A stretch of 64,000 nucleotides of DNA. It comes from Labia minor (taxonomy: Eukaryota > Arthropoda > Insecta > Dermaptera > Spongiphoridae). Location: the NCBI GenBank assembly GCA_963082975.1, contig OY720345.1:54976528-55040527 (forward strand), read 5' to 3'. The notes below the pieces were generated by a model. The model ran no database searches. It saw nothing but the letters and a program-made list of their open reading frames with translations, and was not told where the DNA came from. Positions 22,671 to 35,795 of the stretch are shown piece by piece. Positions within the stretch are counted from its first letter, which is position 1. Every line of letters starts with the position of its first letter. The translations under genes and the position numbers were made by a program.

Positions 22671-22698
22671 CTATATATTGTATGCTTATAAGTAATGT

Positions 22699-23595
22699 TG
22701 TAAGGAACTAATCGAGCCAAACGTTGGGCTGCCACTTTGTAAGGAGGACCGTTTCAAGTTGGGGTCACTTTGTAGACGATCCTCTTACGTTGGGTGCCAA
22801 TTTATAAGGGGATCTAAGTATGGGGCACTTGTAATGACCCACGATGACCGTGAATTGTTAATTATGTTAAGTTATTGATGGGCGCCAACTTTGGATATCC
22901 CAAAGTATAAAATAGTGTTGAAAAATTAAGGGAAAAGGGAAAACACAATAATAATGTTCACATTAATTTACTTTAATTAAATAGATAAAAATTAACAAAT
23001 TAAATATACAAATTTTAAATAGAAAAATAAGAAAATGTAATTCACTAATATCACTGGAATTAGCGGAAATAATTATCACAGGGGGTGATGATAAGGATTA
23101 TACACAAATAATTATATCACGGGACGTGATAAGTATAGGTTATATCAGGATGATATCACTTGTTCGACTGTATCACAGGGTGTGATAAAAATGATTATGT
23201 ACAAAATAATTATATCACGGGACGTGATAAATACCAGGTCATATCGGGATGATATCACTAGTTAAACTGTATCACAGGGTGTGATAATAAAAATGATTAT
23301 ATACAAAATAATTATATCACGGGACGTGATAAATACAGGTCATATCAGGATGATATCTCACTAGTTCCACTGTCCATTCTCAACTGTTAAAAAATATTAA
23401 AACTTGGAGGGATGGATCCTCCCCTTATGTCGAAATATCTCTATATATATATTACATTTTAAGAATAATGCGACCAAATAACTTTGTTAAAAAAATAGGG
23501 GAATATAAAAACAAAATAAACTAAAAAATAGATAAACAAAATAAAATGTATAATAAAAAAAAATAACTAAGAATATAAATACTTTGTCCGTTACA
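22699..23595 (-). repeat. 3' LTR of the gypsy element
   Basis: 897 bp, bounded by TGTAAGG and GTTACA. It contains a 98-102 bp tandem unit repeated about 2.6 times (about 23111-23373), each carrying two short palindromes. A second copy of the TTGGGCTGCCACTTTGTAAG segment lies at 22724-22743 inside the LTR, 40 bp from the boundary. Confidence 0.95.
23074..23331. repeat. Array of six short hairpins inside the LTR
   Basis: Perfect 7-bp stems with 3-nt loops are TATCACG-GGA-CGTGATA at 23115-23131, 23213-23229 and 23315-23331, and TATCACA-GGG-TGTGATA at 23171-23187 and 23270-23286. A longer imperfect relative lies at 23074-23094. The last stem pair is C-G/G-C in one type and A-T/T-A in the other, so both halves change together. 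The same array is in the other LTR (26532-26789), where the single LTR difference falls in one stem. Possible roles are protein-binding operators or RNA hairpins. Confidence 0.85.
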
Positions 23596-23607
23596 TCCTC
23601 CCCCTCT
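23596..23607 (-). other. Polypurine tract of the gypsy element
   Basis: On the minus strand AGAGGGGGAGGA lies directly against the 3' LTR, exactly where plus-strand DNA synthesis is primed in LTR retrotransposons. It confirms the minus-strand orientation. Confidence 0.9.
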
Positions 23608-23639
23608 GATTCCGAGGTCTTTTGATTGAGGGATCAGCC

Positions 23640-25535
23640 TTAGGAACGGACAATTTTTGGCCTTCCTCGCTTACTTAGAGGAACTACTGGAGTAGAACGC
23701 GTGTCGTGGCTTAGACGCAATGCTGATGTATGAGGGGGAACAAGTCCTTGAGTAAATAATTGTTTTTGAGTTTGTGGTGGCTCCATAACTCCTGGTGGGC
23801 CCCGATGGGCTCTCGGAGACCCCACCAGCTGTCTATATCGGACAGCAGGATCTTCTTTGCTGATATTGGTACCGTCCATGGGATCGACGGCCCTTTGCAG
23901 TCCATTCAAGCAACCGCCTGTGTTTATATGATGTTCAGCGAAAGCAGTTGGCTCTCCCCCTGGTTGAAAGACAGTTTCATGTTCTTTTAATAAATGGGCA
24001 AGTTTTATGTTCTGTTCCGCAGATAGCTGAATAGTGTTTTCAACAACAGTATTATTTTCTTCAGTGGTGCAGAGATTTTCTCGAATAAATTTGTATTTTC
24101 TCTTAGGATAATTATGAAAATACCAGCGATTGTTTCGCATATCTAATACTAAACCTGCTTTTCTGAGGAAGTCAAGACCTAATAGTGATCTATTTCCACT
24201 AACATTGGGTAGGAATATCATTTCTATATGTATTATTTTATTTTTGATTTTTACAGGAACTGTAGCTAATAACACGGAATGTATACGCTTTTTCCCGTCA
24301 GCTAGAGTTAAGGAAAGTTTTTCTACTTTAAAATGTTCTCCTCGTTGTCTTAAATAGCTGAGAAGACGCTGACCGCCAATTGAGCGAGTGGCCCCGCTGT
24401 CAACGCAAATAGAACCAGAAGCTTCATAGATGGAGGCTTCTATTAGAGCGAGTTTAGTATCTCCATTTGTAGTGACGTCACACTGCAAGGCGTGTGCGTT
24501 GGTAATTTCCTGATTCGGATTGCAAGTTGGACACCTAGGTTTGGTGACTCCTGGAGTTCCGCAGCCGTAGCAACGAATTATTGAAGAGTCAGTCTCTTCT
24601 TTTTGTTTTTCACGAGGTTGTGAGTTTTTAAAGGGTTTCCGATCATAATATTTCGATTTAGGGGGTTCGATAGATTTATTTGAAGTAATTGTTTTTGAAA
24701 ATGGGGCCCTTAAGTTATCATAGGAGTCGAATTTTTCTGCGAGATCGAGGGGATCTACCAATGTTTCCCAAGAGTCGAGGAAGTGATCTTTGCATTCGGA
24801 TGAACACTTTCTCTTCATTTGATCAGCTAGGATCAAATTTTTAAGTTGATCAAAATTTTCAATTTTTAGATCGGATAGCCAGGCTTCTAGATAACCGCGT
24901 AGATTGAAGTAAAAATCTTTCCAAGTGTTTTCCGATGTCTTCTTGGAGGTTGAGAAAAGTTTTCTTATTTTATCCGTAGTTAATTTAAATCGGTGAAGTA
25001 GGAGCTTCTTAATATGTTGATAGTCTTGGGCGACTTCATTTGGTTCTCTAATTATTAGAGTAGTAATATCTGTGGGTAAGACCGAAATAAGATAAGTGAC
25101 CCATGCATCCTCAGATATGCCAAGAAAATTCATTTGTCTTTCGAAAAGACGCAGATACGTATTAATATCGTCATCGTTAATTTTAAATAGAGGTAAGAAT
25201 TTCAATATATCTACTTTCGGTTGAAGTGGGGTTGGTGATTCTACCTGGTTCACTACGGTTTGAATTCGGAGTTTCTCTAGTTCAAATTGTCTTTCCTTCT
25301 CCTTTTCTCTTTCTTCTCGGTCTCTCTCTCTTTCTTCTTTTTCTTTTTCTTCTTTTTCCTTCCTATCCTCTATGATGGTCATAAGTAATTCCCGTGTAAG
25401 GTCTTCATCATAATCAGGCAATGATGTGATATCATTTTTTATATCGATCCTACGAGAATCTAAATTCATAACTATTCCTAATTCCTGTGCTAAAAGGATA
25501 AGATCCTCCTTTTTCCCTTTGCCGAAAAATGACAT
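23640..25535 (-). CDS. Gag-protease polyprotein of deleted gypsy element (631 aa)
   Basis: One uninterrupted frame starts at the ATG at 25535-25533, about 620 bp downstream of the primer site. Residues 57-92 are a charged Glu/Lys/Arg-rich coiled-coil. About 112-280 is a retrotransposon capsid-type Gag region (FLPLFKINDDDINTYLRLFE; DAWVTYLISVLP). C322, C325, C335 and C338 form a CX2CX9CX2C zinc-binding motif. A retropepsin follows, with the catalytic DSGA at 379-382 and the LLGLDFLRKAG element at 451-461. After AEHHINTG (533-540), where pol would enter reverse transcriptase, the sequence changes to a Pro/Arg-rich tail ending GRPKIVRS. I infer that RT, RNase H and integrase were lost by an in-frame deletion joining early pol to a late pol segment. 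It should assemble particles and cleave itself but cannot copy or integrate on its own. Confidence 0.92.
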   Translation of the reverse strand: MSFFGKGKKEDLILLAQELGIVMNLDSRRIDIKNDITSLPDYDEDLTRELLMTIIEDRKEKEEKEKEERERDREEREKEKERQFELEKLRIQTVVNQVESPTPLQPKVDILKFLPLFKINDDDINTYLRLFERQMNFLGISEDAWVTYLISVLPTDITTLIIREPNEVAQDYQHIKKLLLHRFKLTTDKIRKLFSTSKKTSENTWKDFYFNLRGYLEAWLSDLKIENFDQLKNLILADQMKRKCSSECKDHFLDSWETLVDPLDLAEKFDSYDNLRAPFSKTITSNKSIEPPKSKYYDRKPFKNSQPREKQKEETDSSIIRCYGCGTPGVTKPRCPTCNPNQEITNAHALQCDVTTNGDTKLALIEASIYEASGSICVDSGATRSIGGQRLLSYLRQRGEHFKVEKLSLTLADGKKRIHSVLLATVPVKIKNKIIHIEMIFLPNVSGNRSLLGLDFLRKAGLVLDMRNNRWYFHNYPKRKYKFIRENLCTTEENNTVVENTIQLSAEQNIKLAHLLKEHETVFQPGGEPTAFAEHHINTGGCLNGLQRAVDPMDGTNISKEDPAVRYRQLVGSPRAHRGPPGVMEPPQTQKQLFTQGLVPPHTSALRLSHDTRSTPVVPLSKRGRPKIVRS

Positions 25536-26135
25536 TTTTAATAGGATAATTAAATTTAATGTTAACCAAAGAGAAATAAAAAAAATTAATTAATTAATCA
25601 AAATTAAAAGTTATTTAGTCGCGTACAATTGAATTATACAATGTTTAATTATAAAATAAGATAATTGAAATATAATTTAAAATATGTAAAAGTATTTAAA
25701 TATTTGAAAATATAGTGATATTTTATCAATTTTATTAATTCATTAATTTAAATATAATGTAGTTGAATAAAATTTAAAAATTAAAAAAAAATTACAAATT
25801 AAACATATAAATTAATTGATTATAATTAATAATAATATTAATATATTCAAACTATTTTTATTGAATTAGAATTAAATAGATAAATATTCTATTTGTTAGA
25901 TAAATGTGAAAATTAAAAATAAAAAAAAAATTAACAAGTGTTAAATATATTATTATAATAGACAAGGAGATATGATTTATTTAAATTTAAAGTATAAAAG
26001 TAAAAGTTTTAAATTTTTATTTTATTAATTAAATATTAAATTGTACTATAAGTCCGTTGAGATGAAAAAGTGATGATACTGCTCACCAAAGATGAATAAT
26101 GTACTTTTCTCAGGAGCCGTGGTGTACTAATCGGG
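25536..26135 (-). other. AT-rich leader of the gypsy element
   Basis: About 600 bp between primer site and gag start, more AT-rich than the LTRs and with no ORF. This is where packaging and translation signals would be expected, but I see no specific motif. Confidence 0.6.
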
Positions 26136-26153
26136 CCTCAGGTTGGGCTGCCA
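26136..26153 (-). other. tRNA primer-binding site of the gypsy element
   Basis: Three bases inside the 5' LTR, the minus strand reads TGGCAGCCCAACCTGAGG. It starts with TGG, as needed to pair with the CCA of a tRNA 3' end. I cannot say which tRNA. The first 12 bases also occur inside the LTR 40 bp away. Confidence 0.8.
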
Positions 26154-26156
26154 CTT

Positions 26157-27053
26157 TGTAAGGAACTAATCGAGCCAAACGTTGGGCTGCCACTTTGTAA
26201 GGAGGACCGTTTCAAGTTGGGGTCACTTTGTAGACGATCCTCTTACGTTGGGTGCCAATTTATAAGGGGATCTAAGTATGGGGCACTTGTAATGACCCAC
26301 GATGACCGTGAATTGTTAATTATGTTAAGTTATTGATGGGCGCCAACTTTGGATATCCCAAAGTATAAAATAGTGTTGAAAAATTAAGGGAAAAGGGAAA
26401 ACACAATAATAATGTTCACATTAATTTACTTTAATTAAATAGATAAAAATTAACAAATTAAATATACAAATTTTAAATAGAAAAATAAGAAAATGTAATT
26501 CACTAATATCACTGGAATTAGCGGAAATAATTATCACAGGGGGTGATGATAAGGATTATACACAAATAATTATATCATGGGACGTGATAAGTATAGGTTA
26601 TATCAGGATGATATCACTTGTTCGACTGTATCACAGGGTGTGATAAAAATGATTATGTACAAAATAATTATATCACGGGACGTGATAAATACCAGGTCAT
26701 ATCGGGATGATATCACTAGTTAAACTGTATCACAGGGTGTGATAATAAAAATGATTATATACAAAATAATTATATCACGGGACGTGATAAATACAGGTCA
26801 TATCAGGATGATATCTCACTAGTTCCACTGTCCATTCTCAACTGTTAAAAAATATTAAAACTTGGAGGGATGGATCCTCCCCTTATGTCGAAATATCTCT
26901 ATATATATATTACATTTTAAGAATAATGCGACCAAATAACTTTGTTAAAAAAATAGGGGAATATAAAAACAAAATAAACTAAAAAATAGATAAACAAAAT
27001 AAAATGTATAATAAAAAAAAATAACTAAGAATATAAATACTTTGTCCGTTACA
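26157..27053 (-). repeat. 5' LTR of the gypsy element
   Basis: Same length and sequence as 22699-23595 except T at 26578 instead of C. On the minus strand it begins TGTAACGGAC and ends TTCCTTACA. It carries the promoter for the element, but I could not assign a TATA box with confidence. Confidence 0.95.
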
Positions 27054-27057
27054 ATGT

Positions 27058-34825: not shown

Positions 34826-35795
34826 AATTGGAATTGAATATTTCTGTTCCCCAACTTTTTGTAGACTTTACAAAAGCATATGACTCAATAGACCGGGAAA
34901 AACTTTTTCAAATCTTGATCTTAATTGGAATGCCAAAAAAACTAGTACGTATGATTCAAATTTGTCTTGTCGGTAGTAAAGGAAGAGTAAGATGCGGGAA
35001 TCAACTATCAGAAACTTTCGAAATTCGAAATGGGTTAAAACAAGGAGATGCATTATCACCAATTTTATTTAATTTAGTTCTGGAATATGTAATTAGACAA
35101 ATTGGGGAGAAGTCAAACGGAATCGAATTAAACAAAAAAATTCAATTATTAGGTTACGCAGACGATTTAAATATAATAGGAGATTCGGCAATTGTAATTA
35201 TAGATAGCGTAGAAAAATTAATTGAAACAGGAAAAGAGGTGGGATTGGAAATTAATAGTAAGACAAAGTATTTAGTTACAGGGAGGAATAGTATATAGAT
35301 ATACAAGATATAGAATTTGAAAATAGGTTCTGTGATAACGAAAGATAATAATATTCGAGATGAGTTTAAAGCGAGGTTACAATCGGGAAACGCCTGTTAT
35401 CATGCAATAAAGGGGCTTATCGCGTCAAAATTATTATTAAAGGGGATAAAAATTAAAATATAAAAAACAATTATTTTACCGGTTGTATTATATGGATGTG
35501 AGGCATGGTCTATGACCTTAGGTGACGAGAGTAGATTTAGAGTATTTGAGGATAGGATTCTGCGAAGCATTAATGGCCAAAGAAAGATGAGGTCACCGGG
35601 GAATGGGAGGTTTTATACCAAGTGGGTAACGTCCACTTGGAAGACCAAGGACACGGTGGGTGGAAAGAATGTGAGAGAGATGGGAGAGGATAGGGACTGG
35701 AAGGTTGTAACTTAGAATAAGAATACTTGGAGGGGTGTGGTTGCTGCGGCTAAGAACTTTCGAGTTCCGTAGAGCCACAGAGATAGAATATTATA
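34826..35795 (+). pseudogene. RTE-like LINE, reverse transcriptase C-half and 3' end (copy A)
   Basis: This is the best LINE copy in the window. An intact stretch of about 156 codons (34828-35298) holds RT motif A (FVDFTKAYDSI), motif B (GLKQGDALSPILFNL) and the catalytic YADD box in LLGYADDLNIIG. A stop follows ITGRN-like sequence. The maturase-like and C-terminal segments continue in broken frames (NNIRDEF, NACYHA, VVLYGCEAWSMTL, GGKNVREMGEDR) to the end CGTAGAGCCACAGAGATAGA. The 5' half, including the endonuclease, is absent, so it is a typical 5'-truncated insertion. Motif order and the short microsatellite-like tail suggest an RTE-type clade; that assignment is inference. Confidence 0.88.

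Follow-up and report, generated by a model that had tools for sequence, protein, structure and literature searches.

How is one to read a retrotransposon that looks freshly inserted and carries a long open frame, although this frame encodes no reverse transcriptase (RT), RNase H or integrase? The question is raised by the window analysed here, a stretch of 64,000 nucleotides of Labia minor DNA (contig OY720345.1), in which a complete-looking long terminal repeat (LTR) retrotransposon occupies positions 22699-27053 and is read on the minus strand; the coordinates given for the element are positions in this window. The evidence set out below makes it highly probable that the element is a young copy of a successful non-autonomous (or semi-autonomous) Ty3/gypsy-like family, which would make its own Gag-protease while borrowing RT and integrase in trans.

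The host genome (604 Mb in 71 contigs, the window being part of contig C2) was searched with a 401-base query running across the deletion junction, the point at which the RT, RNase H and integrase coding is missing. Among 243 candidates, the best 40 were scored, window included, and the 39 other places were fetched for comparison, these 40 copies being the basis of the copy counts. The query matched over its whole length in each of the 40 and was identical over the 401 bases in 15 of them (window included), and the junction occupies the same position in all, with base changes and no length change. The flanks, compared by blastn (E-value 1e-20, over 80 bases) wherever a copy had more than 50 bases to either side, do not match one another, with the exception of one 83% repeat match. 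The same junction between flanks that are essentially unrelated supports the original prediction that the deletion preceded insertion, and the occurrence of separate loci with different flanks excludes an assembly collapse. The search for further copies that the prediction had called for therefore refutes the explanation by a single dead copy, whether its deletion arose after insertion at this locus or its structure stems from assembly collapse: the junction is not unique, the target duplications vary between copies, and the probability left to this explanation is negligible.

The recent activity of the family is also visible at the borders of the copies. A strict border test, which required a 4-bp duplication immediately at either end and a primer-site unit at the end of the 5' LTR, was passed by 26 of the 40 copies, with varied duplications; among the fourteen that failed, two (L009 and L047) show one LTR start only. 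A comparison of the two LTRs was possible for 38 copies, window included, L047 (no pair in the fetched stretch) and L009 (whose "pair" is another repeat) being left out: 27 pairs show no mismatch, and 22 show neither mismatch nor gap. Within these 38, the match of L037 extends past the LTR, and both L023 (G000:C9:17671168-17676918) and L037 (G000:C4:12842166-12847916) may be tandem arrangements of the form LTR-internal-LTR-internal. The copies are recent, separate insertions of a mobile family rather than those of a dying defective copy. LTRs, target duplication, primer-binding site and polypurine tract, an open Gag frame in many copies and a shared deletion, by which a Gag-encoding non-autonomous LTR retrotransposon is recognised, were all found, the absence of RT and integrase having been profile-tested in the frame of the window copy, whose layout the other copies share.

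Turning to the window copy itself, the two LTRs are of equal length and differ at a single position (23120 C against 26578 T), ATGT stands on either side as target duplication, and an intact polypurine tract is present, in agreement with the original prediction. The primer site, which had been called intact, is present but imperfect: one inserted base and three mismatches were counted over 23 aligned bases in comparison with what we take to be the 3' end of tRNA-Lys(CTT). The features are as follows.

22695..22698, no strand: target-site duplication ATGT, left copy, from the sequence
22699..23595, minus strand: 3' LTR, 897 bp, from LTR comparison and border analysis
23074..23373, no strand: three 102-bp tandem repeats within the 3' LTR, with many short palindromes
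23596..23607, minus strand: polypurine tract, directly before the 3' LTR, intact, from the sequence
23640..25535, minus strand: single 631-codon frame with Gag-like part, Cys-rich motif, aspartic protease, RT-linker start and C-terminal tail
23640..23917, minus strand: post-junction tail, about 92 codons
23917..23918, minus strand: deletion junction, where RT, RNase H and integrase coding is missing and the frame runs on into the C-terminal tail
24159..24434, minus strand: aspartic protease, residues 368-459, from Pfam and invariant motifs
24522..24572, minus strand: presumed Cys-rich motif, residues 322-338
25536..26156, minus strand: untranslated leader, 17% G+C
26126..26203, minus strand: 39-bp tandem duplication straddling the LTR border, with one primer-site unit inside the LTR and one being the used site
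26136..26153, minus strand: primer-binding site, 3 bases beyond the LTR end, imperfect tRNA-Lys match
26157..27053, minus strand: 5' LTR, 897 bp
26170..26192, minus strand: primer-site copy inside the 5' LTR, score 34
26235..26257, minus strand: second primer-site copy inside the 5' LTR, score 27.5
27054..27057, no strand: target-site duplication ATGT, right copy

Only one other open reading frame of the 64-kb window reaches 150 amino acids (it has 156), and the 631-codon frame is therefore not a chance frame. When it was searched against Pfam, gag-asp_proteas was matched at residues 368-459 (E-value 1.4e-4; score 22.8 bits, below the curated threshold of 28.2), and no match to RT, RNase H or integrase profiles was obtained in this frame, thereby bearing out the predicted stop-free Gag-protease frame; the remaining open reading frames of the element, at most 76 amino acids long, all overlap the 631-codon frame that the search covered. 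The identification of the protease is further supported by the invariance, in all 35 open frames, of nine residues from position 377 (DSGA motif) and seven from position 451 (LLG motif), and only 1 of the 17 positions of what we take to be a Cys-rich motif varies among these frames. The likeness to pol ends just past a sequence resembling the start of a gypsy RT region, and some 92 further codons follow in frame. By means of what we take to be the RT-start motif, the junction was placed at 23917/23918, within ambiguity of the position near 23916 first proposed. The tail probably represents the C-terminus of the polyprotein that was lost, and could correspond to the tail of its integrase. A search of solved structures returned nothing meaningful (best E-value 0.047, to a coiled-coil chimera), and no relatives were found in viral contigs, prokaryote genomes or phages, as is expected for a sequence from a host genome of this size.

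A 4-bp target duplication, a Gag-protease order, a gypsy-like start of the RT linker and a tRNA-Lys primer are typical of Ty3/gypsy elements. The 4-bp duplications are present in the 26 copies mentioned above, and the other traits were read against motifs that we take to be those of gypsy elements. The RT, RNase H and integrase domains, whose order and RT phylogeny define the superfamily, are missing from the window copy, and the other copies have the same junction; the assignment as Ty3/gypsy-like is a putative one.

In 35 of the 40 copies the frame stays open for more than 600 codons, its differences in length being whole codons within a charged repeat (alignment columns 65-93), except in L017, which has a changed C-terminus. 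The five broken frames are those of L009, which lacks the 5' part in the fetched stretch, L016, broken by a frameshift in the charged repeat, and L022, L029 and L038, in which a one-base length change affects the same A-run on different branches of the tree of copies (from which L009 was excluded), as a result of either recurrent slippage or assembly error. For the estimation of selection, these five were removed, the 35 open frames were collapsed to 30 distinct ones, and columns absent from the window copy were dropped. Under a codon model applied to the 30 frames, the ratio omega is 0.263 for Gag (residues 1-330; log-likelihood -2286.9 against -2315.0 at omega 1, a gain of 28.1) and 0.352 for the zinc-finger/protease part (residues 331-470; -1028.7 against -1038.3, a gain of 9.6), whereas it reaches 0.687 for linker and tail (residues 471-631), with a gain of only 1.1 (-1253.5 against -1254.6). 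In the same line, pairwise ratios among the 35 frames are 0.23 for Gag, 0.45 for zinc-finger/protease, 1.26 for the linker and 0.75 for the tail, and parsimony ratios on internal and tip branches are 0.25 and 0.25 for Gag and 1.19 and 1.15 for the tail, and the synonymous divergence between copies reaches about 0.09 changes per site. Gag and zinc-finger/protease are thus constrained, and linker and tail are not distinguishable from neutral. The comparison of nonsynonymous and synonymous change suggested in the original prediction thereby reveals constraint where it was looked for, and lends indirect support to the idea that the element is packaging-competent.

Taken together, these data can be accommodated in a life cycle whose transcription, particle formation, helper and cis preference we infer. 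The LTR promoter would drive an RNA that is exported and translated into Gag-protease; Gag would package this RNA together with Gag-Pol from a pol-bearing relative; the protease would mature the particle; and the RT of the relative, primed by tRNA-Lys, and its integrase would copy and insert the element. Gag-protease would thus come from the element's own RNA and probably act preferentially on that same RNA. As the frame encodes neither RT nor integrase, the element must use the enzymes of another element, which upholds the predicted transposition in trans. With these two enzymes supplied from outside and Gag-protease self-made, selection would keep Gag and protease while the leftover of pol drifts, and because Gag does not drift as linker and tail seem to do, packaging by its own Gag-protease is most likely.

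Several observations nevertheless weigh against this reading. First, the 40 best-scored of the 243 candidates were picked by their similarity to the window, and thus lean towards young copies. Second, three copies with a broken frame, L016, L029 and L038, are very young, with a target duplication and no difference between their LTRs; a self-made Gag may hence not be an absolute requirement, provided that the A-run changes seen in L029 and L038 do not stem from sequencing errors. Third, the parsimony ratio of the protease is uneven (0.82 on internal branches, from 16 versus 6 changes, against 0.29 at the tips), and that of the linker is 2.0 on internal branches, from only 9 changes, against 0.59 at the tips, the contrast in selection hence resting mainly on Gag and tail. 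Finally, repeated renewal of gag by template switching with the helper could make the constraint on Gag a borrowed one; recombination of gag between lineages is described for the wheat element RLG_Quinta (PMC11302176). This recombination and the three young broken-frame copies, together with the youth attested by the 27 mismatch-free LTR pairs, would suit a purely parasitic deletion derivative, for which Gag, protease, RT and integrase would all be made by the helper, the open frame being a by-product of youth and template switching. Such a derivative is nonetheless unlikely, since, in spite of the 0.09 or so synonymous changes per site, the Gag ratio stays close to 0.25 on both internal and tip branches, with linker and tail not distinguishable from neutral. 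In a helper, moreover, the RT start and the pol tail should be constrained as well, so that wholesale refreshing does not predict the contrast between Gag and tail.

Constraint on Gag could also be accounted for in another way. In yeast, Ty1 is restricted by a truncated Gag, and by analogy the element might be an interfering one, as the original prediction had suggested among its options, with a Gag-protease that poisons or dilutes the particles of its helper. Interference of this kind would keep Gag under selection and supply it in excess; yet selection through the element's own spread suffices, and the invariant protease motifs are more in keeping with functional Gag and protease than with a dominant-negative form, which leaves this possibility very improbable.

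A further particularity of this family lies at its LTR border. The two primer-site copies inside the 5' LTR score 34 (the unit belonging to the 39-bp duplication) and 27.5, whereas 60 shuffles gave at most 19.5; with a score of 18.5, a third candidate (26335-26345) is within chance. In the 26 copies whose ends are fixed by duplications, the end of the LTR precedes unit 1 in two (L036 and L039), unit 2 in 23 and unit 3 in one (L028), and the LTR border therefore stands on different rungs of a ladder of tRNA-Lys primer sites in different copies. If priming took place at a downstream unit, the unit upstream of it would end up in both LTRs. Besides, the used unit is a perfect 18-base complement of the tRNA in 7 of 26 copies, as against 2 of 29 for the other units (Fisher p 0.069), which is suggestive only, while fitting tRNA copying during second-strand synthesis. 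Among the papers listed in literature searches, none deals with primer-site arrays to judge by title and abstract, those on tRNA-Lys priming concerning HIV-1; such listings are weak evidence of absence.

The LTRs have other repeats of their own. Each contains, at 23074-23373 and 26532-26831, three 102-bp repeats made of short palindromes separated by 3-base spacers, the palindromes being of two kinds distinguished by a paired change in their arms. The LTR has 9 palindromes, where 300 shuffles gave 2.2 on average and 7 at most. An enrichment in GATA-type sites is not claimed: the LTR has 9 of them and shuffled versions 3.2 on average and no more than 8, but another 897-bp stretch of the window has 10. 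Elsewhere in the window, the 156-amino-acid frame (34828-35298, plus strand) resembles by eye a fragment of a non-LTR reverse transcriptase, and has diverged matches at other places of the window.

As regards the origin of the deletion, the bases just before the junction are CAG, which weakly suggests a splice donor. In Drosophila, a Gag-protease RNA of Copia is described as being made by splicing (PMC11835246). By analogy, the family may possibly have been born from a packaged spliced RNA, and a template jump would give the same product. In its fullest form, the scenario would be that a spliced gypsy Gag-protease message, counterpart of the Copia-gag RNA, was packaged and reverse-transcribed into an independent, selected element forming the capsid half of a two-part system, and that its LTRs have grown and shrunk by primer-site units since tRNA-Lys can prime at any rung; we put this forward tentatively, as a conjecture with a modest chance of being right.

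Retroelements dependent on enzymes supplied in trans include LARD, TRIM, BARE-2 and HeT-A. LARD and TRIM code for nothing, BARE-2 is without Gag, and HeT-A is a non-LTR telomeric element. The founding paper on TR-GAG elements reportedly dates from 2015. As far as the cited sources were covered, Gag-encoding non-autonomous elements are established in plants (PMC8704663, PMC11302176). Described with RLG_Cereba in wheat centromeres, and mentioned alongside RLG_Sabrina, RLG_Quinta is, like the present element, non-autonomous, of gypsy type and endowed with an intact Gag frame, while RT and integrase are lacking; it is proposed to bring Gag and to owe its mobility to an autonomous partner, the same arrangement being proposed here (PMC11302176). 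It differs in being a plant element with Gag and a domain of unknown function, no protease appearing in the described parts, and in having a partner identified by shared primer-binding site and LTR ends, whereas the partner is inferred here (PMC11302176). The TR-GAG element AT5TE33540 of Arabidopsis ddm1 likewise consists of LTRs and a single Gag frame, most proteins missing, and its transposition was shown, a potentially autonomous relative being present (PMC8704663). However, this member of ATCOPIA63 from a plant encodes Gag only (562 amino acids), whereas the element studied here is gypsy-like, encodes Gag and protease, and had its selection measured (PMC8704663). In terms of content, the Drosophila Copia-gag RNA comes close, with Gag and essentially the protease part of pol, a product that processes itself and assembles capsids; it is nevertheless a spliced RNA of a full-length element (PMC11835246), whereas the present family consists of DNA copies that have LTRs of their own and are inserted at many places. 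No animal counterpart was noticed in the literature matches listed, which were not examined for it.

Since the protease is kept, unlike in the Quinta and TR-GAG examples, the family is a variant of the Gag-encoding non-autonomous LTR retrotransposons and not a plain member. Its kind is known from plants, and what is unusual is the retained protease, the contrast in selection within one frame and, probably, the setting. The family lends itself to the question why Gag is retained by non-autonomous retroelements, selection acting on the genes that were kept and the leftovers of the same frame being without detectable constraint, and its primer-site ladder provides, in a natural element, sequence-level traces of LTR borders shifting between alternative primer sites.

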